DNA of 41,220 nucleotides from Coemansia sp. RSA 922 (lineage: Eukaryota > Kickxellomycota > Kickxellomycetes > Kickxellales > Kickxellaceae). The stretch lies in NCBI GenBank assembly GCA_027577415.1, contig JANBQS010000069.1:1-41220 (forward strand), in the 5' to 3' direction. Under the pieces are notes generated by a model. It saw only the letters and a list, made by a program, of their open reading frames with translations, ran no database searches and was not told the DNA's origin. Each line of letters begins with the position of its first letter. Position 1 is the first letter of the stretch. Below, in pieces: positions 17,340-40,365 of the stretch. The position numbers and the translations under genes were made by a program.

Positions 17340-17471
17340 ATGTCACGCTATGGAGCACCACACCCATGGGACGAACCCAAGCTTCCTATCAAATGCCGTA
17401 ATTGCAGGCATGAGTCATGGTCGAGTTTTGAATCACATATGCATACTGCGAGAGGGCACTGGAATAGATAA
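17340..17471 (+). CDS. Zinc-finger microprotein Z1 (single C2H2)
   Basis: A 43-residue ORF that is too short for most gene finders. Its zinc ligands would be C19, C22, H35 and H40 (C-x2-C-x12-H-x4-H), in the context KCRNC...SWSSFESHMH...GHW. It aligns without gaps over the finger with the ORF at 19067, sharing W27, S28, E31, both His and the following Trp. Its leader (ATACTTTATT, then CACTTGTCAAGTG) resembles the leaders of array units at 35-37 kb (for example TATACTTTGCTTTATTC and TTGACTAGTGCCAC). It may be a transcription-factor-like or decoy microprotein; the function is unknown. Chance occurrence is unlikely given the array, but expression is unproven. Confidence 0.5.
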   Translation: MSRYGAPHPWDEPKLPIKCRNCRHESWSSFESHMHTARGHWNR

Positions 17472-18439: not shown

Positions 18440-19066
18440 AAGCAGGTTGTCTACAATTTCAAGTAGGGGAGACATTTACTTGGCCAAGTCACTAAAACAA
18501 ATAGACAAAATTACATACTGGTACTCGTACTAAGCGTATAAAAATCCAAACACAGGGGTAGTATGACCTCTTTGATTCCCCAATTGAGTCTGGGGCGGGC
18601 TATAAATACCTAAAACTTGAGCATTTATACCGCAGCGTGGCGTTTGAGACAAACAAGCATTAATCTGATATCTGTCGTGCATATAAGACAGCTTATAGGC
18701 TGTTGCAGGATAGCAGGAAAGGTGTGGAAAACCGTCTTTAGACATGTATGTGGATTCAGAAATTGATCAACTGTCAGATAGCGACAAGTGCTAGCCAATT
18801 TCTGTAATCACACGTTGTTTTTTGCAACCTGCCAAGCATGCCAGGCAACTTGTAATATGCAAGGACGTTTCAGGGGGATAATGATGTGATTGTTTCCAAT
18901 TAATTTTGATGTTTTGAAGGGAATATAAAAGAGACAGTGCTTTGGCGCTACCTCTGTTGTTTCCTTATAAAGTATCATCTCTATAAACTCCATATTACTT
19001 GGCATTTTATATCCTACTATAGCATTTTCCCTCTCCGCTTGCTATCCATTGTCACTGAATCTCGCT
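18440..19066. other. A+T-rich spacer with several TATA boxes; Z2 promoter
   Basis: This region holds TATA-like elements near 18537, 18601 (TATAAATA), 18924 (TATAAAAG) and 18965. The one at 18924 lies 143 bp before the Z2 ATG, the spacing seen in the 35-38 kb array. The one at 18601 lies 143 bp before an ATG at 18744 that opens only a 16-codon frame. No other gene is seen. Confidence 0.4.
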
Positions 19067-19201
19067 ATGCCGACATTTAATACGCAAGAGTGGCCAAATA
19101 AGGTTAAAGAAGCCCAGTACCTATGCAATTTTTGCAATGTTGGTTTCTGGTCGAGGTCAGAATTGGATTCACATTTGTTAATGAGCCACTGGAGGATATA
19201 G
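19067..19201 (+). CDS. Zinc-finger microprotein Z2 (single C2H2)
   Basis: A 44-residue ORF with a textbook C2H2 finger: ligands C20, C23, H36 and H41, plus the classical core Phe at +4 after the second Cys and Leu three before the first His (CNFCNVGFWSRSELDSH). The ORF ends four residues after the last His. A TATAAAAG at 18924 is 143 bp upstream of the ATG, matching array units B, C, E and F (139-144 bp). It is closest to Z1 at 17340, with a shared Trp-Ser, Glu and His-Trp. Probably a free-standing single-finger microprotein; the target is unknown. Confidence 0.55.
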   Translation: MPTFNTQEWPNKVKEAQYLCNFCNVGFWSRSELDSHLLMSHWRI

Positions 19202-19593: not shown

Positions 19594-19671
19594 ATGAGGG
19601 CTAAATGGCGCAAGAAGCGCGTGCGTCGCTTGAAGCGCAAGCGCAGAAAGATGCGCGCGCGCAACAAGTAA
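19594..19671 (+). CDS. RPL41: Cytosolic ribosomal protein eL41
   Basis: A 25-residue ORF, almost entirely Lys and Arg (MRAKWRKKRVRRLKRKRR followed by KMRARNK). This is the near-invariant sequence of eL41, the smallest eukaryotic ribosomal protein, which forms one helix bridging the subunits. Length is exactly as expected. A CT-rich tract about 100-130 bp upstream fits a ribosomal-protein promoter. No intron interrupts the coding sequence. A larger antisense open frame over it is a shadow of the Arg/Lys codons. Confidence 0.95.
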   Translation: MRAKWRKKRVRRLKRKRRKMRARNK

Positions 19672-24518: not shown

Positions 24519-25766
24519 ATGGCTGTCCCGTCCTCTGTCGACTTGCCCGAGAGCATACCCTTTGAGCCCAGCGACTGGAACTACAAGGGCGAGGGAAACG
24601 AAAACATTGTGTTCTCGTATGGAGGAAGCAACACCGACATAAGCGGATGGCTCTTGCGACTGTCAAAGTGCGATGTAGCTACGAGCGTCAATGGCTGTAC
24701 CGCGCACCAGCTGGACGACACTCAGAGAAAGCGAGACAACGCCACTTACACAACCAGCGTCATTGGTCCTCTACTTGGGCCAGAGTACATATTGCCACAG
24801 CGTCTGGTGGCACTTGAGCCGGACTTTCTTCGCCGGCTGCAGGCAAAGAGCGAGCCATTGCGTCCAGCCCACCGGCTCCATAGACAAGTAGACCTGAGCC
24901 AAGAAGTGGGCGTTCTAATGCCAAACGCTTTTCGTGGTACGCCGCCCGTCAGCAGCAGTGGTCGGCTAAGACAGTCAGTCACGGTAGAGTTAAAGCCAAA
25001 ATGGGGGTTCCTGCCCAGCCTATCGTCAGTTTCCCCGCGCAACTCTGTGAAAAGTCGGGTGTGTCGATATTGCATGCACCAGTTCACAAAGCACGCGTCA
25101 CAAGACATCAGCGGCTTTTGTCCACTTGATTTGTACTCGGGCGACTGCCACCGCATAGTGCGAGCTTTGGACAGCCTAGCACAGTCTCCTCAGAATAACT
25201 TGCGTGTGTTTGTCAATGACCATATTGCCATTGACAGACATGGTAAGATTAGTGATGAGTGTGTGTCTCAATGGGAGGCTCTTCGCGACTGTATCGCCGA
25301 TATCGTGCTCAAAGAACCCTTGTTTTCTCGGCTCAAGCAGTGTCAGCGAATGTTGGACTCGCTTGATATAGAAGGTATTCTACCATTGTATAGACGCGCA
25401 GTGGAGTCGGGGTCTCTAGCTAACGTGCAGCCGTCTATTGGCGACTGGCTCACCACTGTCACCGACTTTCTCCATCGCACTGAGCGCGCGGATTCAACTG
25501 TGACCGATAAGCAGGTGATCTTAGAGTTTCTAATATCCACTACGCTGAAGGACGTATCGGTGCTAATTACACTGCCAGAGTGGCCTGTACACAGGACCTC
25601 GCTTGACAGTGTGCCTACTGAACCGCAATATGCAATTGCGGTGATCGATTCGGACCCCAAAAAGCTGGCAAAAATCCCCGACTACTTTAGCAAAGACGAA
25701 AAGATCGTCAAGCACTATCTCAAGCATTGCCCCGACCTTGGCAGCCAACGACAGTGCATCGAGTAG
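24519..25766 (+). CDS. IPK1: Inositol-pentakisphosphate 2-kinase, copy a
   Basis: Phosphorylates the 2-position of inositol 1,3,4,5,6-pentakisphosphate to make phytate (IP6), needed for mRNA export and as the inositol pyrophosphate precursor. The 415 aa protein shows WNYKGEGNENIVFSY (nucleotide-binding glycine loop, residues 25-39) and VELKPKWGFLP near 155 (the EIKPK motif). RVCRYCMHQ and CPLDLYSGD follow (near 180-205), then QNNLRVFVN, LKDVSVLI and a late catalytic-type Asp in VIDSDPKKL near 376. A single-exon gene with ATG at 24519. The gene 283 bp downstream is a paralogue in the same direction. Confidence 0.92.
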   Translation: MAVPSSVDLPESIPFEPSDWNYKGEGNENIVFSYGGSNTDISGWLLRLSKCDVATSVNGCTAHQLDDTQRKRDNATYTTSVIGPLLGPEYILPQRLVALEPDFLRRLQAKSEPLRPAHRLHRQVDLSQEVGVLMPNAFRGTPPVSSSGRLRQSVTVELKPKWGFLPSLSSVSPRNSVKSRVCRYCMHQFTKHASQDISGFCPLDLYSGDCHRIVRALDSLAQSPQNNLRVFVNDHIAIDRHGKISDECVSQWEALRDCIADIVLKEPLFSRLKQCQRMLDSLDIEGILPLYRRAVESGSLANVQPSIGDWLTTVTDFLHRTERADSTVTDKQVILEFLISTTLKDVSVLITLPEWPVHRTSLDSVPTEPQYAIAVIDSDPKKLAKIPDYFSKDEKIVKHYLKHCPDLGSQRQCIE

Positions 25767-26049: not shown

Positions 26050-27303
26050 ATGCCTATTTCCAAGGAGCTCGTCGATATTCCGCTTGTACCAGGCGACTGG
26101 GACTATATAGAAGAGGGAATAGAAAATGTGATTGTGTCGTACCACGGTAACGATCCCGAGTTGCAAGGCTGGGTACTTCGACTGACAAAATGTGACGTTG
26201 GCGCTGATGCAGATGTCGACAGCCACGAAGCCTCGCTATTCCGCAACAAGGAGCTACAGAGAAAGCAAGACGCACTCGAGTTTGCAGCAAACATCGTCAG
26301 TCCGATAGTTGGAGACGAGTATGTTCTACCACAGCGGCTGGTCACTGTGACTAGCGAGTTTCTTCTCCAAGTCCGAAAGAACATCGAGTCCCGGCGGCCC
26401 AAGAACAGACTAGCCAAGTATATTGATTCCAGGCAGAGTGCAAGCATGCTAACCAGGGAAATGATATCCCGGACGCCAGCCAACGACAAAGGTAGACATT
26501 CGGTGACTGTAGAGTTGAAGCCAAAGTGTATGACTCTGCCAAGATCCGAGTTTGCTGCGCCCGAGAGCTCGGTAAAGCACCGGGTATGCTGGTTTTGTAT
26601 GAATCAATACATTTTGCACAAGGACGGCAACGTTAGCAAGTTCTGCCCGCTCGAGCTCTTCTCCGGAGACCGCGACAGGATAGCCATATCTCTGGACCAT
26701 TTTGCGCAATTGCCTCACAACAACTTTGTCATCTTCGTGGATGGTCGCAGCGTCGTCGACGACCAAGGGGAAATTAGCGACAAGTGCGTGCCTCATTGGG
26801 ACTTGCTCCGGGATACCGTCGCTGATATTGTGCAGAAAGAGGAGCTTTTCTCGAGGCTGCAACTGATACAGCGCGAGCTGGATTCGTTCAACATTGAGAG
26901 CGTCCTGCCAAAGTACCAGCATGCTTTGGAAACTGGTGTGCTTACTACTGAGGAACCTGGGATTGGTGCTTGGCTCGAGGCATATGCCGAGTTTAGAAGG
27001 CGCCTGGATTCGGGAAGCATCGATAAATCCATGGTCAGCGACTGTCAGGCGGTATTGGAGCTCATACTCGCCACCACACTTAGAGACGTCTCGGTTCTAA
27101 TCAAGTTTGACAACTGGCCAGCACGCAGCGTGACGGACACTGGTTCTTTGGATTACTCTCAGTACACTATCGGCGTCGTCGACCATGACCCGAAAAAGCT
27201 GAGCAACATACCAAAGTACCACAGACTTGACCGCGACATTGTCGCTACATACCTTCGACACAACCCCGACGAAGCCGACCAGCGACCATGCCGCGAGGAG
27301 TAA
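26050..27303 (+). CDS. Inositol-pentakisphosphate 2-kinase paralogue, copy b
   Basis: A 417 aa paralogue of the gene at 24519, alignable end to end (WDYIEEGIENVIVSY, VELKPK, RVCWFCMNQY, CPLELFSGD, NNFVIFVDG, LRDVSVLI, VVDHDPKKL). The KPK lysines and the late Asp remain. The glycine loop is altered: copy a has GEG-N-EN where this copy has EEG-I-EN, so the first Gly is lost, and the WGFLP after KPK is replaced by CMTLP. It may be a kinase with changed activity, or a paralogue with another role. Tandem duplication is clear; divergence suggests it is old. Confidence 0.85.
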   Translation: MPISKELVDIPLVPGDWDYIEEGIENVIVSYHGNDPELQGWVLRLTKCDVGADADVDSHEASLFRNKELQRKQDALEFAANIVSPIVGDEYVLPQRLVTVTSEFLLQVRKNIESRRPKNRLAKYIDSRQSASMLTREMISRTPANDKGRHSVTVELKPKCMTLPRSEFAAPESSVKHRVCWFCMNQYILHKDGNVSKFCPLELFSGDRDRIAISLDHFAQLPHNNFVIFVDGRSVVDDQGEISDKCVPHWDLLRDTVADIVQKEELFSRLQLIQRELDSFNIESVLPKYQHALETGVLTTEEPGIGAWLEAYAEFRRRLDSGSIDKSMVSDCQAVLELILATTLRDVSVLIKFDNWPARSVTDTGSLDYSQYTIGVVDHDPKKLSNIPKYHRLDRDIVATYLRHNPDEADQRPCREE

Positions 27304-32607: not shown

Positions 32608-33042
32608 CTAAATATAGCATTGGGACGTCATTGCGGTAGCGCCAATAAGTGCCTGAGCCAGTTCCTCAAAATCCGGACGCTGTCGCAAAGCGCGAATGGC
32701 CTCGACTGGATTGGGATCTTTGCGCACGGCCTCTAGCAGCGCTCGCGTATTTGGGTTCATCAATAATTGCTTGACCTTGGTCGACTCGTCCAATTTTTGC
32801 AAGTCACCGGGTGTCAGTCTGTACTTTTCTTCTTCGTCATCGTCACCAATACGATCTTGCTCGCTTTGTTTTAAGACTCGGCCCTTGCTTGGTGCTGCTG
32901 CCGGCGTGCTGTGGTCTGGTGGAGCGCATGGCTCGAGTTTGTGCAGCTTGAAGCATTTAACCGAGCAGTAGCCCGCCCGACATGTGGGGCACTTGTATTT
33001 GGAGACTGCCTCGCTACAAACAGTGCATGTTTCGCCGCGCAT
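32608..33042 (-). CDS. HIT1: Zinc-finger HIT protein (ZNHIT3/Hit1)
   Basis: Assembly factor for box C/D snoRNPs, acting with Rsa1/NUFIP in the nucleus. The 144 aa protein opens with a zf-HIT domain (CTVCSEAVSKYKCPTC, then YCSVKCFKLHKLEPC), residues 6-40, with all Cys/His ligands present. After an acidic linker (DDDEEE) comes the Hit1-like C-terminal helix pair with LLMNPNTRALLEAV and DPNPVEAIRALRQRPDF. I start at the ATG at 33042 (MRGETCTVC) because the family begins right at the finger. It is divergent from FIBP with 221 bp between them. Confidence 0.88.
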   Translation of the reverse strand: MRGETCTVCSEAVSKYKCPTCRAGYCSVKCFKLHKLEPCAPPDHSTPAAAPSKGRVLKQSEQDRIGDDDEEEKYRLTPGDLQKLDESTKVKQLLMNPNTRALLEAVRKDPNPVEAIRALRQRPDFEELAQALIGATAMTSQCYI

Positions 33043-33263: not shown

Positions 33264-34656
33264 ATGCGCGACTTTGCCTCGGCTAGCTTCCAGCTCTCAA
33301 ATTTGCGCTTGCCTCACCCGAACCTAGACTTTTTGCGCTTCAACCGGCACGAGGAGCAAGCAGACGATGCAAACTTTACAGCTATAGTGTCGACGCCAGT
33401 CGTGGTAGACAACATGATATTTAGCGAGTACATATTAGGTCGACCAGGTACGAGGAGAATCACTGATACTGGCACCTCAAAGGTTGGTTGTCGTCACTTG
33501 GACCAACACTAAGCGTATCTACAAATGCTCTTGCTCTATAGTTCACGAAATGGTAACCCGGATGCGCAGCGAGCCGGACATGGTAGGCGCACAAGAGTCA
33601 GCAGTGACCGAGTATGTCAGGGGACAGCTTCACCTGATGCAGTACCTAGAGTACTACATGTGCCGTCCACGGTACTTTCTCGAGCAACGCCATCTCTTGC
33701 CGCTAGGCGATAAGGCACGCATGGGTCTAGTCGAGCAGTACTATTCGTTTGACGAGCCAGTGATGCTTGAATTCCTCAGCCGCAAGCTCAACTCCCGTAC
33801 TCGCACATATCTGCCCGAAGTGGCAACAAAGACAGGCATCCCTGTAGCCAGCTGCAAGCGCCAGTTTGAGAATATCAAACGCATTGCCAAGCAGTCAGAA
33901 GACGAGGAAGGCGTGCCGCTAGTCAATGAGATTATGGAAAGGTTTTCATTGTCCGAGCCACTAGCGACACACTACGCGCATATCCTGTTTTTGAACATTA
34001 ACAGAGTTGACACGACAAAGCGTTGTCTGGCACACTTCAAGTTTGCCGACTTTGACTTTTGTGCTTCGATACTCATACAGTACTGGACTACTCCGACTAG
34101 CACGATGACGCTAGACGATATCGACCAACCGCTTACCCAGCACGCTCAGCAGTTGAAGAGTCTTTTAGTTGAAAACAAGGCCAATTTTGACTGTTTGTGT
34201 ACAGCAGTGCGCGTTCACATCAGTTCGCTTATACCCAAAACGCCCAGCGGATCTTCGGCCTCTACCTCTACAGTTCCCTCATCAGCTTTGCTGGCGCTAC
34301 TGGAGAATCGCATCGTACGTGGAAGTACACAAATTCGAGCAATCTTGCGGGTTTCGTTTAGTATAGTTGCCGACATTGGCGCTTCGTCAACGTTGCGCAG
34401 CGTATTAGGAATTATAGTGGAGAAGATTGTCGATTCGTTTGCCAGCATGGGTCTGCGATCCGAGGACATGGAGCTGTTTTACGACTCTGTCATTATCCAC
34501 TCCATTGGCATTGTCACTGAGCAGATTCCCGATTCGGCGCCTGCCATTGAGGCCCTCAGTCGTACTCTGACAGGAACCAAGCTTATTGGGCGCAGACTGT
34601 TTAGACAGAAATCTAGCATTTTCGGCCCGCTAAACAAAATCAGACCCGCACAATAG
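33264..34656 (+). CDS. FGF1 intracellular-binding protein homologue (FIBP), two exons
   Basis: The long open frame from 33542 onward contains VEQYYSFDEPVMLEFLSRKL, then LPEVATKTGIPVASCKRQFEN and FKFADFDFCASILIQYW. The matching human FIBP blocks are [32 protein letters not shown] and LSFGDFAFCAEMMIQNW. Exon 1 is 33264..33447 (ATG, then ...EYILGRP). The intron is 33448..33541 (GTACGA donor, ATAG acceptor, 94 bp, phase 1), and exon 2 is 33542..34656. The join gives GRPVHEMV and a 432 aa protein, longer than the roughly 360 aa animal form. FIBP's molecular role is poorly known outside animals. The separate start inside the intron (33484) is an artefact. Confidence 0.85.
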
Positions 34657-34900: not shown

Positions 34901-34986
34901 CACAATTGTGCAATTGTTCCAATATACTTTAATGTTGAGTACTCTTTGCTCGACATGATCCACTTCAAACCAGTCTTGCTATAAAA
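34901..34986 (+). promoter_or_regulatory. Promoter of unit A
   Basis: The palindrome CACAATTGTG (34901-34910) is followed 70 bp later by TATAAAA (34980-34986). The ATG is at 35107. Confidence 0.6.
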
Positions 34987-35106
34987 TGGCAATGATATGG
35001 CATCTACATCCTTGGAGGAACTTCGTCACACCTTGCTTATATTCTAATTCTCATCTGACAAGTGTCACAACTAATAAAACGTCAGCTCATAATATCAGCT
35101 CGAGCC

Positions 35107-35271
35107 ATGCATCGTATTTACTCAAAATCTGATCCATATCCTGGAAATTGCTGCTACTGTTGGGCATATATTCTGACTGTTGAAGACGCGGTAAAACATT
35201 TTCGAGATAAACACAATGTTACATTGGTTGGCAAAGGCTGCCCTCCAAAGAAACCCTATTGGCTGCTCTGA
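35107..35271 (+). CDS. Zinc-finger microprotein, unit A
   Basis: A 54 aa ORF, the longest of the array. Zinc ligands would be C15, C18, H31 and H36 (C-x2-C-x12-H-x4-H). A Tyr-Pro pair precedes the finger, as in units D, E and F. It alone has a C-terminal extension after the finger, with GKGCPPKKPYWLL at its end. TATAAAA lies 127 bp upstream. No transmembrane segment or signal peptide is seen. A single finger seldom binds DNA tightly alone, so protein or RNA binding, or a decoy role, is as likely. Confidence 0.6.
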   Translation: MHRIYSKSDPYPGNCCYCWAYILTVEDAVKHFRDKHNVTLVGKGCPPKKPYWLL

Positions 35272-35518
35272 GCCCGGCGAGTGCTGAGTCGAAAGCAGAT
35301 CTCGTTGTTTGGACAGCTAACAACGCGACTGGGCACCTTGGGATATATGAGAGCCCTTATGTGCGATGTCGACGTGATGGCTATAATTGTACATGTATGC
35401 TCCAGGCTTACATGCGGGTGGAAAATTGCATACGTGAACAGCATTCCTAAAGCAACTATTCTAACAATATACTTCTGTATTTTGCATTCGCATATAGAGC
35501 TGACCATCTTCTCACTCA

Positions 35519-35600
35519 ATTGTACAATCACAGAAACATACTTCATTGTTGGTCATTTGCATATTGTTTTAATCTATTTTGAGTCTAATATGCTATAAAA
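35519..35600 (+). promoter_or_regulatory. Promoter of unit B
   Basis: The palindrome ATTGTACAAT (35519-35528) is followed by TATAAAA (35594-35600), 75 bp from start to start, and a leader with TATACTTTGCTTTATTC and TTGACTAGTGCCAC. The ATG is at 35736. Confidence 0.6.
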
Positions 35601-35735
35601 AGACAAGGGCAAAACACCCATTCGCTCGCAGGAATACTGCTATACTTTGCTTTATTCTAACTCTCGCTTGACTAGTGCCACTTTAACTACGTCTTACTTT
35701 ATCACCAGCCTGTACTGTTGTGCTACATTTGCATA

Positions 35736-35846
35736 ATGGCGGTAATGGATACCCGAATTTGTTATCTTTGTGGGATGATGGTAGTATCGGTACAAGAAGC
35801 AAAGCTACATTTGTTAATATGTCATAATATTAACGTAGTCGACTGA
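35736..35846 (+). CDS. Zinc-finger microprotein, unit B
   Basis: A 36 aa ORF with ligands C9, C12, H25 and H30 (ICYLCGMMVV ... KLHLLICH). It ends six residues after the last His. It is colinear with unit C without a gap: the two proteins have the same length and share 16 of 36 residues. TATA lies 142 bp upstream. It is too short for standard annotation but is supported by its paralogues. Confidence 0.6.
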   Translation: MAVMDTRICYLCGMMVVSVQEAKLHLLICHNINVVD

Positions 35847-36130
35847 ATCTGCTATCCCTAGTGTGTATAGCCCTTTCATTTGCTTAATAAAAAAGCATTT
35901 ATACTATTTAAAAAAACAAGGCATTCTCTCCTTATTCCTCATATATACCACTGAAAAGTCACTGACCATCTACAGCAAGAAGGTGGGCAGAAACTTGCTA
36001 CTCAAATAGAAACTGATGTACGTAAGCTCTTGTGTATTTTCCAAACTTGCACGTGAGTGGTATTCACAAAGATTTGGGAATAAGAATATACGCACGTCAG
36101 TGGTTAACAAGCCAACCATCTTCGCACTTA

Positions 36131-36216
36131 ATTGTATAATTAATAAACTCTGTTTTAATGCTGAGCATTCACGTAATGCCTGGGTTGAACCACTTAGAGC
36201 CAGCGCTGTTATAAAA
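36131..36216 (+). promoter_or_regulatory. Promoter of unit C
   Basis: ATTGTATAAT (36131-36140), one base from the ATTGTACAAT palindrome of unit B, precedes TATAAAA (36210-36216) by about 70 bp. The leader has CTTGACAAGCACTG. The ATG is at 36350. Confidence 0.55.
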
Positions 36217-36349
36217 GGCAATCCTAGGACGCCCACCCACTCTGAGGGATTTCATAATATCTCGTCAATATTACAAATCCGCTCTTGACAAGCACTGTAA
36301 TTACCACGCCGTAGTTTGAAACCAATCTGTATTTTTCTGCTTTAACGTA

Positions 36350-36460
36350 ATGGCGGCGACGAATGGCAGAACATGTAAAATTTGTGGGGCGGTGGTAGCA
36401 TCAGTAGAAGAAGGGAAGGGAAATTTGCTAATTTATCACAGTATTGTGTTGTCTGGCTAA
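36350..36460 (+). CDS. Zinc-finger microprotein, unit C, one ligand lost
   Basis: A 36 aa ORF, the same length as unit B. C9, C12 and H30 are present, but the first His is Asn25 (GKGNLLIYH against AKLHLLICH in unit B). Zinc binding should be weakened or lost, so this copy may be decaying or doing something else. TATA lies 140 bp upstream and the ATG context (GTAATGGCGGC) resembles that of unit B. Confidence 0.5.
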   Translation: MAATNGRTCKICGAVVASVEEGKGNLLIYHSIVLSG

Positions 36461-36757
36461 AGATGCACTCCCCAGTTGGTATAGCCTCCTCCATTAAGTT
36501 TAATAACTAATTACATTATTAAATTACTAAACAAGAAACGTCATCTCTTTTCATACCTATTGATTGTTATTAAAAGGGTATAAGTTGTTTACAGAGAATA
36601 GGTGAGTGGGACCTCACTATTCCATTAGATAACTTATGTACGTGAACTCTTGTGTATATTCAAAACTTGTACGTGGCTGGCATTCCTATAGCAATTGTAC
36701 ATAAAACCTTATTTCGGCATGTGTCAACTTCATTCAGAGCCGACCTCCAGTGCACAT

Positions 36758-36843
36758 ATTGTACAATTGCGCGAATGTCCTTGAATGAGGAATGTTCGTG
36801 CACTGCTCAATATGATTTTATCTAGGCTAGAATTGTTATAAAC
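36758..36843 (+). promoter_or_regulatory. Promoter of unit D
   Basis: ATTGTACAAT (36758-36767) lies about 70 bp before TATAAAC (36837-36843). GGCAACGG and CTCGCTCGGAGGAACTTCG follow; unit A has CTTGGAGGAACTTCG in the same place. The ATG is at 36931. Confidence 0.55.
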
Positions 36844-36930
36844 ATGGCAACGGTTTGACATTCACTCGCTCGGAGGAACTTCGTTTTATCTTGTTTTATT
36901 TTAAAATCTGCCTGATACATGCTAGATATC

Positions 36931-37041
36931 ATGTCGGTAACCAAGTTATATCCCAGTTACTGCAAAATATGCGAGAGGCTGCTAAAATCGGTGAAAGCCA
37001 AGTTCTATCACTTTGAATAACACACCTTTAAGCCAACATAG
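36931..37041 (+). pseudogene. Zinc-finger microprotein, unit D, premature stop
   Basis: The ORF opens MSVTKLYPSYCKICERLL with C11, C14 and H27, then TAA at 37018-37020. The next codon is CAC (His) and the frame continues six codons to TAG at 37041. The stop therefore falls immediately before the last zinc ligand, giving a 29 aa product without a complete finger. The total length with readthrough would be the same as units B and C. Either a nonsense mutation or, less likely, readthrough. It has the shortest TATA-to-ATG distance in the array (94 bp). Confidence 0.55.
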
Positions 37042-37615
37042 TATTTATTATTATACCAAATAGTAGGCAGTATAAAAGAATGCAACCCAATTAGTATACC
37101 TCATTGTATGGTATTTCGTTATCGTCTAATGATAATACGGTACTTGAATGCCACAAGAACAAATAACTGGCTTGACAATTGACTCTCACTGAACAACTCA
37201 CTATCACTGAAAGGCCTGACAAAATTAACCTATTTATCTATAATTACCTTACCCTGGACATTGTGTTACCATTTCATTTCAAGATTATAAATTTGTGGCT
37301 GTATTAATTAGCAATTAAAATTAAAAAATGGATTTTTTGTAAATACTTGTAGTAAAATTTAAAAGAAAGCAATATGCAATAGTAATATAATTGCCTGAGT
37401 TGCCTATAGGATATATGTGAGCTGTTATGCATGTTCTAAGCATATACATGGGCGGCATTCAAATAATAAAATTATATGCTAAGAAACGAATGTTCATAAT
37501 TGACAATTACATAAATAGCCAGACATTGGTAAACGCAATTATGCAATGATCGTCAGATACTTTCTCCGATATTCACAAGTTGCTTGGCTTGGTCTGCTCG
37601 AAAATGGCCTTTTTA
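37042..37615. other. Spacer between units D and E
   Basis: A very A+T-rich stretch. It contains a lone TATAAAAG at about 37071 with no zinc-finger ORF after it (possibly a degraded unit), the recurring block near 37410-37460 (ATATATGTGAGCTGTTATGC), and TAATTGACAATTA at about 37497-37509. Confidence 0.4.
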
Positions 37616-37624
37616 TATATAAAG
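37616..37624 (+). promoter_or_regulatory. TATA box of unit E
   Basis: TATATAAAG at 37616-37624, preceded by GCTTGGCTTGGTCT, a block shared with unit F. It lies 144 bp before the ATG. Confidence 0.55.
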
Positions 37625-37759
37625 GCATTGTTGTAGGTCCTTTTCTTGGAGAGAGCTCGCTATACTTTACTTCATCCAATTTTCTCCGGACAAACACCGC
37701 AATATTTACTCCAAACTATAAACTCTGCTTGGATTTTGCATCATATTTCTTTGGCAGTG

Positions 37760-37855
37760 ATGAATTACCCCACTGAATGCAAGGTGTGTGGAATGTATCT
37801 AGAATCGGCTGATCAGGATTTTACCCACTATATAAAGGACCACCTTGTCGCGTGA
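37760..37855 (+). CDS. Zinc-finger microprotein, unit E
   Basis: A 31 aa ORF that is nothing but a finger: MNYP, then C7, C10, H23 and H28, with three residues after the last His. It shares MNYPxxCxxCGxxLxS with unit F, 12 identities over 28 residues, at the same start position. The TATA-to-ATG distance is 144 bp. A longer open frame overlapping the leader in another phase is a shadow. Confidence 0.55.
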   Translation: MNYPTECKVCGMYLESADQDFTHYIKDHLVA

Positions 37856-38109
37856 CACAATACTTTTTTGTCCCAATGGTTTCAAATATGTTACTCTGCA
37901 CGTCAATTGTGTAATGTACATGACACGATATTTGTAAAAGCTAGCTTTCTTAAATGTGCAGACCTACAAGTATAACGCGGGATTCCAATCCAGTAATATA
38001 ATATTAAATTTTTATTATACTTTTGAATATTCCTCATTTGGTCAATTAAATGTGCTGCTAATTGTATTCATATTCCGCTTGGTTTGGTCTTTCCAAGTGT
38101 TGTTTGCCG

Positions 38110-38118
38110 TATATAAAG
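38110..38118 (+). promoter_or_regulatory. TATA box of unit F
   Basis: TATATAAAG at 38110-38118, preceded by GCTTGGTTTGGTCT as in unit E. It lies 139 bp before the ATG. Confidence 0.55.
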
Positions 38119-38248
38119 GGCTAGTCAGCCAGGAGATAACACAAGGAGCTAAATCGCATATTTTAAAATTATCACTTCCATCTCAACAGGCGCTAAAGAA
38201 AACTACTGCAAGACACATTAAATTGTTCCAAGGATTAAATTGTTGATA

Positions 38249-38353
38249 ATGAATTATCCACGCAATTGCCATATATGTGGGCAGTTTCTAGCATCAGAAA
38301 TAGACGGGTATTATCACTTTATAAGGATCCACTCTCTGTGGCGGATCGGATGA
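38249..38353 (+). CDS. Zinc-finger microprotein, unit F
   Basis: A 34 aa ORF with MNYP, C7, C10, H23 and H28 (CHICGQFLAS ... YYHFIRIH) and a short tail SLWRIG. It is the sister of unit E. All four ligands are intact. It is the last unit of the array; the next gene is on the opposite strand. Confidence 0.55.
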   Translation: MNYPRNCHICGQFLASEIDGYYHFIRIHSLWRIG

Positions 38354-38661: not shown

Positions 38662-40365
38662 TCAATTATACATAGCGTGAAGAAGTCGATTAAGTTGCAA
38701 GGCATACTTGCTATATGGTTTACGCTCAAGCGTTTCTACCACTATGGCATTAAATTCAAGAGCTGCCTCACAACCCACATCAAGTCGGCGAAGCCTTGGA
38801 CAACAAAGGGCAAGTAGCAAAACATATTCAGTAGTAACGACACTCTTGCCGTGAAACCCTGATATATACCAGGCCTGAAGGCATTTTTCAGTTTCTTTGT
38901 ACGTAGAAGCTATGTAGTCAGGCAAGTCATCAGCATCAATCTGTGCAAGCTCTGAACCTAGATTAAGAACACCACATGTAAGCTTCACAAGGGCTGGAAA
39001 TGCCTTTAACAGGCGCAAAATGTCATAGAAATAGAGTTGTTTGTAGGACATATTCAACACTTGGACATTCATGAACCCATGACCACCTGGCGCTGCTGCT
39101 ATTATAGGTTTGGCTTGAACTGAGTATGATAGTACCAACTTACGAGCAGGTTCTATGAGATCCCTCAAAAATGTGTTCCAAACAGTTTCCAAGGTGAGAG
39201 AGATACCGCCAGCTCGGATGTTCTCACAAAGTTTGACTGTATGCAAAACTCTATTCTTGTTTTTAAACACTCGACTGTCGTGTAGCACATGTGCAGAATC
39301 CGTGTCGATTTTAAAATCCAGGTATTTTAAGGTGGTACTATTGCCTCGGAAAACTACATCATCAGCAAATGGATACGGCATGTTTATTCTCAGGCTTGCC
39401 AATAAAGGAAATGGCACCATGCCTGGGGCCAAAACTCGTCCTTCAGAGTAATCATGGACGGCACAATACAATACCAGATGTTTTATATTCGGATAAACGA
39501 TAGAGTTACCATGAATATCATACAGCAGTGCTCTTGCATTACGCAACCCAATATACAAGAATTGGAGTGATGAGGAACACTTATGAACAAGCTCGGTGTT
39601 TAAATCAAATGCTGTTGTGCAGCGCACGCTTAGTGAAGAAAGCTGAGGAGTATTTTCAACAGTTGACGTATGCTTGATTTTCAGATCTCTCAGTTCGAGT
39701 CCTGGGCTTTTTATGTTGCCACATAGTAAATTCATAAACATCCCTAATATTTCTTCATCAAACTTACCTATGAGTCTATTAGTACCAGCGAATATCACAT
39801 TCATCGTTGCTATGCCTAGAGTAACTGACTGAATCAGTTGAGCAAACTTGAGAGCATTGCCAATGGCCTCATCCTTTGAGCATGGCGAGGTGATGGTCCA
39901 ATCGCCAACCACTATAGTAAGCTTGTTGACCAAAGGAAATCCTTCTGTATCTCCCATGAAGTCGGACAAAAGCCTGTGGGCAACCCCATTTACAATGATA
40001 TCCATGGGTACATACAGTTTAACCTTCCTGACCAGAGGTGCAATGCCATGAGGAAGATAGAACAGGTTTTTCCATAGTGACCCCGAGATAATCATCTTGG
40101 TCCCTTCAATGTTGGCACATAGGGTAAGGTCCTTCCAAATATATTCCAAAGAGGCTTGTCGCCAAGAGGAGCACACATACAACATCTCTTCCATCTTTCC
40201 TTTCGTGTCTTCTGATTTATCATGTGGTGACATTAGTCCCCTTACCACAAAGTGTCTAACTTGGTGTATGATAATAGATGGAGCAGTCTGTGCTGGAGAT
40301 ACATGTTTGGAAATATTGGCAAACGGCAATTTGCATGGAAGAAGAGAAGTTAAGTAGTGTAGCAT
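38662..40365 (-). CDS. F-box-like/leucine-rich lineage-specific protein
   Basis: A 567 aa single-exon protein. Near residues 60-80 it has YVCSSWRQASLEYIWKDL, the cysteine-Ser-Trp/Leu pattern that ends many fungal F-box-like N-terminal domains. The rest is irregular leucine-rich repeats (LELRDLKIKH, LSSLSVRC, IKHLVLYC, LLASLRINMPYPFADD, LKYLDFKID, PRLRRLDVGC). Such proteins are often SCF ubiquitin-ligase substrate receptors. The F-box itself is weak, so the assignment rests on architecture. The gene flanks the zinc-finger array, an accessory setting. Confidence 0.6.
   Translation of the reverse strand: MLHYLTSLLPCKLPFANISKHVSPAQTAPSIIIHQVRHFVVRGLMSPHDKSEDTKGKMEEMLYVCSSWRQASLEYIWKDLTLCANIEGTKMIISGSLWKNLFYLPHGIAPLVRKVKLYVPMDIIVNGVAHRLLSDFMGDTEGFPLVNKLTIVVGDWTITSPCSKDEAIGNALKFAQLIQSVTLGIATMNVIFAGTNRLIGKFDEEILGMFMNLLCGNIKSPGLELRDLKIKHTSTVENTPQLSSLSVRCTTAFDLNTELVHKCSSSLQFLYIGLRNARALLYDIHGNSIVYPNIKHLVLYCAVHDYSEGRVLAPGMVPFPLLASLRINMPYPFADDVVFRGNSTTLKYLDFKIDTDSAHVLHDSRVFKNKNRVLHTVKLCENIRAGGISLTLETVWNTFLRDLIEPARKLVLSYSVQAKPIIAAAPGGHGFMNVQVLNMSYKQLYFYDILRLLKAFPALVKLTCGVLNLGSELAQIDADDLPDYIASTYKETEKCLQAWYISGFHGKSVVTTEYVLLLALCCPRLRRLDVGCEAALEFNAIVVETLERKPYSKYALQLNRLLHAMYN

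Follow-up and report, generated by a model that had tools for sequence, protein, structure and literature searches.

Putative tandem and dispersed genes for free-standing single C2H2 zinc-finger microproteins in Coemansia sp. RSA 922

Can an open reading frame (ORF) barely longer than one zinc finger be a gene in its own right? The question is raised by contig JANBQS010000069.1 (here C69) of the fungus Coemansia sp. RSA 922, which in its entire length of 41,220 nt is the window analysed here; the genome that we searched with it comprises 20.4 Mb on 960 contigs. Between the FIBP gene and an ORF of 567 amino acids, six ORFs of 29-54 amino acids follow one another head to tail on the + strand (35107-38353), separated by 393-739 nt from each stop codon to the next ATG. 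A preliminary description of this DNA had reported six such units, each with a TATA box, and had read C-x2-C-x12-[H/N]-x4-H in five of them, with the sixth cut before its last His. We found all of these features (box positions relative to the ATG):

35107-35271, + strand: unit 1, 54 amino acids, C-x2-C-x12-H-x4-H
34980-34987, + strand: TATA box of unit 1, at -127
35736-35846, + strand: unit 2, 36 amino acids, C-x2-C-x12-H-x4-H
35594-35601, + strand: TATA box of unit 2, at -142
36350-36460, + strand: unit 3, 36 amino acids, C-x2-C-x12-N-x4-H
36210-36217, + strand: TATA box of unit 3, at -140
36931-37020, + strand: unit 4, 29 amino acids, stops two residues past the first His
36837-36843, + strand: weak TATA-like box of unit 4, at -94
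37760-37855, + strand: unit 5, 31 amino acids, C-x2-C-x12-H-x4-H
37616-37623, + strand: TATA box of unit 5, at -144
38249-38353, + strand: unit 6, 34 amino acids, C-x2-C-x12-H-x4-H
38110-38117, + strand: TATA box of unit 6, at -139

The strict motif is thus present in units 1, 2, 5 and 6. Unit 4 is probably a degenerate copy; an in-frame ATG at 36919 would lengthen it to 33 amino acids, and its box, TATAAAC, fails the stricter pattern TATA[AT]A[AT]. The array is real, but it is not the whole feature as first described: the window holds two further members, both in its second AT-rich island, and the genome holds many more.

We propose as the probable explanation that the units are real genes of one exon each, and that the lineage-specific family to which they belong encodes free-standing microproteins with a single C2H2 zinc finger. 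Judged by their sequence features, it is very likely that they are real, translated genes. The earlier suggestion of single-finger microprotein genes missed by annotation is supported by the paralogues, the depletion of upstream ATGs, the spacing of the TATA boxes, the coding constraint, the predicted ββα fold and the profile match, as set out below.

Strict-motif ORFs starting with ATG and encoding 25-80 amino acids occurred six times in the window, whereas among 200 third-order Markov shuffles their mean number was 0.005 and never exceeded 1 in any one; the array gave four, and 1000 shuffles of it gave none. Region by region, the shuffle means were 0.000-0.005 and the observed numbers 1-6. 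Since the motif was derived from the array ORFs themselves, the independent weight comes from other contigs, where the spacing of 12 and 4 residues is constant while the remaining sequence has diverged. The shuffle controls and this recurrence bear out the claim that the spacing is beyond chance.

Protein searches of the organism's own genome, combined with scans of the retrieved stretches, yielded at least 44 copies on 20 contigs. This number is a lower bound, as late queries still gave new members (two queries, one of them unit 1, gave none); it includes some haplotype pairs of one locus and leaves out three copies related to an ORF at 17340 (on C945, C77 and C161). The strict motif is found in 36 copies, all distinct in sequence. 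The eight others comprise two with H-x3-C, two without the first His, one frameshifted, two truncated and the C44 copy, which lacks the second His position. Unit 1 as a query matched only itself and its copy on contig C279. Tandem arrays recur: six members on C538 (10524-14055), a corresponding five on C248 and three on C72, with one on C61. Further members are located on C3, C20, C44, C77, C161, C945, C85, C199, C90, C894, C150, C42, C636 and C660. The tandem neighbors on C538 (11565, 12153 and 13921) and C72 (12411-12527 and 13257-13370) were revealed by scanning alone, at a time when no query matched them. The 27 members that we tabulated have 29-55 amino acids and one finger apiece. No long parent gene was found: the own-genome matches listed, among which only the best candidates had been scored, all lay in open frames of at most 84 amino acids, although a spliced or strongly diverged parent could escape.

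Contig C279 is collinear with window positions 19849-41220 at 94-97% identity, which indicates that C69 and C279 represent both haplotypes, or two near-identical strains, in one assembly. Between haplotypes the family shows presence/absence differences and decay. The unit at C538:12153-12266 is absent from the C248 array, a presence/absence polymorphism (C538:9024-14895 aligned to C248:1918-7312). Genes of another type, MSDKSS, were seen on C44, C20 and C3, two of them with H-x3-C. By eye, the C44 copy resembles C20 in its upstream DNA and C3 in its ORF and downstream DNA, a chimera that suggests exchange between loci.

To what extent do the units look like genes outside the motif? A TATA-like box was present 85-175 nt before the ATG in 19 of 21 non-allelic finger ORFs, compared to 12 of 59 control ORFs (P 1.7e-8), and 14 of the 19 boxes lie at -126 to -146. 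The 21 ORFs are the non-allelic members of 37 tabulated copies, excluding the C85-type copies, C636 and C660, the last because its start coordinate did not pass a check; the controls were other ORFs of 28-60 amino acids, taken from either strand in the two window islands and in C538, and the truncated unit 4 may be among them. Where several TATA boxes were present the one nearest -140 was chosen, and the ORF at C538:12738 was read from an internal ATG. Because each ORF was read from its first in-frame ATG, out-of-frame upstream ATGs were used as the measure of leader quality. Between box and start only 2 were present while 18.3 were expected, and none of 5000 shuffles was as low. No out-of-frame upstream ATG was found in 90% of the 21 finger ORFs compared to 25% of the 59 controls (P 2e-7). 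This depletion fits selection by first-AUG translation and is not expected of chance ORFs or fragments.

The coding sequences point the same way. Over ten haplotype pairs with intact frames there were 19.5 synonymous and 32.5 non-synonymous changes, a ratio of non-synonymous to synonymous differences per site (pN/pS) of 0.43 (P 0.003 against the expectation from sites), and the pooled pairs indicate net purifying selection. One of these pairs, C72/C61, may represent either diverged haplotypes or paralogues. The set omits units 4 and 5 (truncated and frameshifted, respectively) and the pairs C3/C44, C150/C42, C85-type and MPTFN, the last being a hypervariable branch described below. In unit 1, none of the 66 bases of the finger core differs in the C279 haplotype.

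Promoter and leader stretches are detectably similar among the array genes on C69, C538, C72 and C3. From the array leaders we drew by eye a consensus, TGACAAGCRCYACAA, which resembles one further feature of the window:

35056-35070, + strand: leader element of unit 1

A search of the genome with TGACAAGCRCYACAA, allowing one mismatch, returned 27 places compared to 3 for the reversed control. Five of these precede finger ORFs (on C3, C72, C248 and twice on C538), all in arrays already known. No finger ORF was seen after the other 22, although one of these (on C424) lies at a contig end, where no judgement is possible; comparison of four of them with the known arrays revealed nothing notable in common. 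With five of 27 places before finger ORFs, the element belongs to the arrays, and we rejected it as a marker of the family. Separately, a 55-nt repeat lies between array units at 36011-36065, 36631-36685 and 37406-37460, in copies 65-84% alike, and may be an upstream control element.

The finger itself was assessed on 24 of the 27 members, those with C-x2-C-x12-[HN]-x4-H. In these cores a Gly follows the second Cys in 14, a hydrophobic residue occupies x4 in 23, Ser is found at x6 in 19 and Glu or Asp at x9 in 18, and none of these residues played a part in detection. A helix that begins with Ser-x-x-Glu has a capping box. An AlphaFold2 model of unit 6 is a beta hairpin followed by a helix (ββα; predicted local distance difference test score, pLDDT, 86.9), and the protein encoded at window position 19067, from the MPTFN branch, was likewise predicted as hairpin plus helix (pLDDT 78.1). 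The models were built without zinc, on alignments of six and five window sequences, respectively. A profile of 22 members matched solved C2H2 fingers, with E values of 2.5e-9 for Aart (a sum over several of its fingers), 6.9e-8 for ZBTB24 and 2.3e-4 for the EEA1 finger that binds Rab5. On the basis of the capping box, the models and these matches, we are highly confident of a zinc-stabilised C2H2 fold.

Several observations weigh against this interpretation. None of 16 members scanned reached the Pfam gathering score, the best C2H2 match having 20.3 bits where 27 are required. The 34-residue unit 6 chain had no Foldseek match in the PDB at E ≤ 0.001, though most of the 50 Foldseek rows were C2H2 fingers by title. 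Position x10, usually Leu in classical C2H2 fingers, is variable in the 24 cores, with Ala the commonest residue. Ligands and frames are not intact throughout: the first His of unit 3 is N in C69 (H in C279), unit 4 is cut short in C69 and C279 alike, unit 5 carries a 2-bp frameshift in the C279 haplotype, and the first His is damaged in one copy of C248:5156. If in-frame ATGs are included, 7 upstream ATGs remain in the 21 leaders (26.0 expected). In the window array, ORF divergence (26/676) shows a marginal deficit compared to the non-coding DNA (182/3227; P 0.06). Six of 19 leaders match no other at E 0.01, namely those of unit 6 (38249), C538 13303 and C538 13921 within arrays and those of the 19067, 17340 and C3:b genes. 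In a protein database, the 22-member alignment gave 6 candidates sharing words, none at E 0.01, and unit 1 alone gave no candidate sharing three words (at most 100 words were used in each, which is not exhaustive). ORFs so short would be missed by annotation in any case. The sole match of unit 1 in a scan of prokaryote genomes, nine residues in Oscillatoria, was taken as chance. Finally, basic members exist (unit 1 and C3:a have net charges of +4), which leaves room for nucleic-acid binding.

How might such proteins act? In each array unit a TATA-like box precedes a leader that has few upstream AUGs, followed by an ORF of about 30-55 codons, barely longer than one finger. Expression would be TATA-driven and possibly stage-specific, with translation mostly from the first AUG of each mRNA. 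The peptide would fold around one zinc ion as a ββα mini-domain and would present a compact protein-binding surface that occupies a partner, or competes with a larger zinc-finger protein, rather than reading DNA. We give protein binding an even chance of being the main mode of action. It is favored over DNA reading because the finger is alone, because net charge is zero or negative in 16 of the 27 members (range -8 to +4), and because helix positions -1 and 3, which read bases in DNA-binding fingers, are mostly occupied by the capping Ser and by Glu or Asp, with little variation.

Single-finger DNA-binding regulators, in which the flanking residues aid the finger as a basic arm can, are accordingly an unlikely alternative, and some data do point to them: the proteins matched by the profile include the DNA-binding C2H2 arrays Aart and CTCF, the structural neighbors include the GAGA-factor finger (rank 50), and some members are basic. 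However, the other 16 of 27 members are neutral or acidic and the flanks are short, and a family diversifying to read DNA should vary at helix positions -1 (Ser in 19 of 24) and 3 (Glu or Asp in 18 of 24). It could instead be speculated that the ORFs are what decay has left of a former multi-finger protein, or of a mobile element that carried fingers, in pieces that were dispersed and duplicated and have no protein product. Such decay would account for the truncated unit 4, the frameshift and the missing ligand in one haplotype each of units 5 and 3, the damage to the 17340 ORF in three related copies and the location of the window members in AT-rich stretches. It would not lead us to expect the depletion of upstream ATGs or the placement of the TATA boxes; the full motif is kept in 36 of 44 copies, pN/pS is 0.43, and no parent gene appeared among own-genome matches listed in frames of at most 84 amino acids. 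We therefore regard fragments as improbable.

Another possibility is that the ORFs are exons of larger spliced genes, with ORF ends that are an artefact of reading through introns. GT-AG introns occur among fungi generally, and a GTRNGT donor is present in 2 of 11 array ORFs. It is missing from the other nine, which makes exons of one gene unlikely; moreover, every window unit has its own TATA-like box, stop codons come soon after the finger, and the main neighboring genes are long single ORFs. Taken together, this reading is very improbable. Chance ORFs are the least probable of all, to the point of being negligible: this AT-rich DNA has many ORFs of 30-50 codons, but shuffling refutes this explanation (0.000-0.005 against 1-6) and the same pattern occurs on other contigs. 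Single-finger microprotein genes remain the interpretation that we prefer.

The two window members outside the array are represented by three features:

19067-19201, + strand: MPTFN-type gene, 44 amino acids, C-x2-C-x12-H-x4-H
18924-18931, + strand: TATA box of the 19067 gene, at -143
17340-17471, + strand: 17340 ORF, 43 amino acids, single finger

The 19067 gene lies upstream of an ORF that reads like ribosomal protein eL41, and contig C945 carries the same downstream DNA. That ORF (19594-19671, + strand; 25 codons) could serve as a positive control for a real microgene of a size that length-limited ORF lists miss. Because this downstream DNA is shared, the C69 and C945 copies look like one locus. 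Between them, 148 of the 150 bases before the ATG are the same, and so are 356 of 376 aligned downstream bases, whereas the coding sequence differs at 40 of 123 bases and protein identity is down to 46%. Identity is 88% further upstream and 87% across the whole 3.5 kb, and divergence between the two contigs exceeds that of C69 from C279 around the main array; the copies may be old alleles or partly paralogous. A second MPTFN locus (C77 and C161), with a near-identical leader, shows a milder form of the same pattern, with 19/123 coding differences compared to 6/150 in the leader and 23/376 downstream. All four copies retain the frame, the ligands and the residues F, S and E at x4, x6 and x9, respectively. 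Over the four copies, the 150 nt ahead of the ATG (window 18917-19066) are 96-99% identical, above both the ORF and the DNA farther upstream.

In all six pairwise comparisons of MPTFN copies, which are not independent, pN exceeded pS. For the two within-locus pairs pooled the one-sided P was 0.11, and we rejected positive selection (dN/dS > 1) as a conclusion, claiming only hypervariability. Since pS in these two pairs (0.15-0.16) exceeds the divergence of the flanks, old allelic lineages or conversion between loci would explain the variation equally well.

The 17340 ORF has no TATA box that we could find and has two upstream ATGs. The last His is gone from all three related copies and the ATG from two of them, so the ORF is probably decaying. 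We had considered it as a constant partner of MPTFN, an idea dropped when the four-copy alignment showed the lost start codons and the lost last His.

In the MPTFN branch the residues of the fold are retained and most of the rest vary, a pattern that a recognition surface would be expected to show. It is conceivable, though rather doubtful, that the family forms a recognition system with rapid turnover, built on a minimal zinc-finger scaffold and comparable to genes of self/non-self distinction, mating or conflict. In such a system the promoter, the leader, the Cys and His ligands and the capping-box residues would stay constant, while the other residues would diversify between copies of one locus. 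If this hypervariable branch were under diversifying or balancing selection, it would constitute a very small polymorphic recognition protein.

Does the family belong to a system already described? It shares with classical C2H2 fingers (Pfam zf-C2H2) the common C-x2-C-x12-H-x4-H form, the hydrophobic x4, a predicted ββα fold and the profile match to solved fingers. It differs from them as a lone finger in 29-55 amino acids, mostly with Ser and Glu or Asp at -1 and 3, with a variable x10 and scores below the Pfam cut-offs. The EEA1 finger, found by both the profile and the fold search, is likewise a single C2H2 finger, and its solved partner is a protein (PDB 3mjh, in complex with Rab5A). We note the resemblance in possible mode only and claim no membership. 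EEA1 itself is a large endosomal protein of which this finger is one domain. Effectors of the AVR-Pii type in the blast fungus are small, secreted and have a zinc-finger fold. In contrast, the finger of the six window units begins with a Cys at residue 7 to 15, and the 6-14 residues ahead of it, by reading, would leave no room for a signal peptide; elsewhere in the family as many as 22 residues precede the finger. ZNF706 has a C2H2 finger but is longer and has another domain; it is likewise a small zinc-finger protein, and it is not a tandem, diverse family.

ZNF706 is described as a human microprotein that acts as an RNA chaperone (PMC13082076). Most known microProteins arose from large ancestral genes, according to PMC5381583, which covers plants and animals; they are likewise small and single-domain and may act via protein interaction, whereas this family had no larger relative in its own genome among the matches listed. 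According to PMC6562870, Haloferax volcanii encodes many one-domain zinc finger u-proteins of < 70 amino acids in one genome, largely unstudied, and 12 of 16 deletions gave a phenotype. The haloarchaeal proteins resemble our family in the number of small single-domain zinc fingers per genome, but they are archaeal and have two C(P)XCG motifs (PMC11241148 and PMC10716476), while all 24 cores here have one CxxC followed by HxxxxH. The haloarchaeal u-proteins, the microProteins and ZNF706 are the nearest precedents; by the tests made, none of them is the same family.

A limited literature search gave no described fungal family of free-standing single C2H2 microproteins, and we know of none in print. 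The C2H2 domain is known; a large fungal family of this kind is, as far as we can tell, new. It would mean that a gene family of at least tens of copies in one fungal genome is invisible to standard annotation, each gene having fewer than 60 codons, and that an early-diverging lineage of fungi has naturally assembled a collection of zinc-finger scaffolds that are both minimal and diversified.

The genes around the main array are mainly long single ORFs. Two flank the six units directly:

33550-34656: FIBP gene, adjoining the array, with 93% identity to FIBP of Coemansia sp. RSA 2675
38662-40365, strand opposite to the array: ORF of 567 amino acids, on the other flank

Farther from the array, an ORF on the minus strand at 32608-33042 encodes a HIT zinc finger together with a ZNHIT3 C-terminal domain. 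The adjacent ORFs at 24519-25766 and 26050-27303 are alike by eye, which may reflect a tandem duplication; a match to inositol-pentakisphosphate 2-kinase was obtained with the first.

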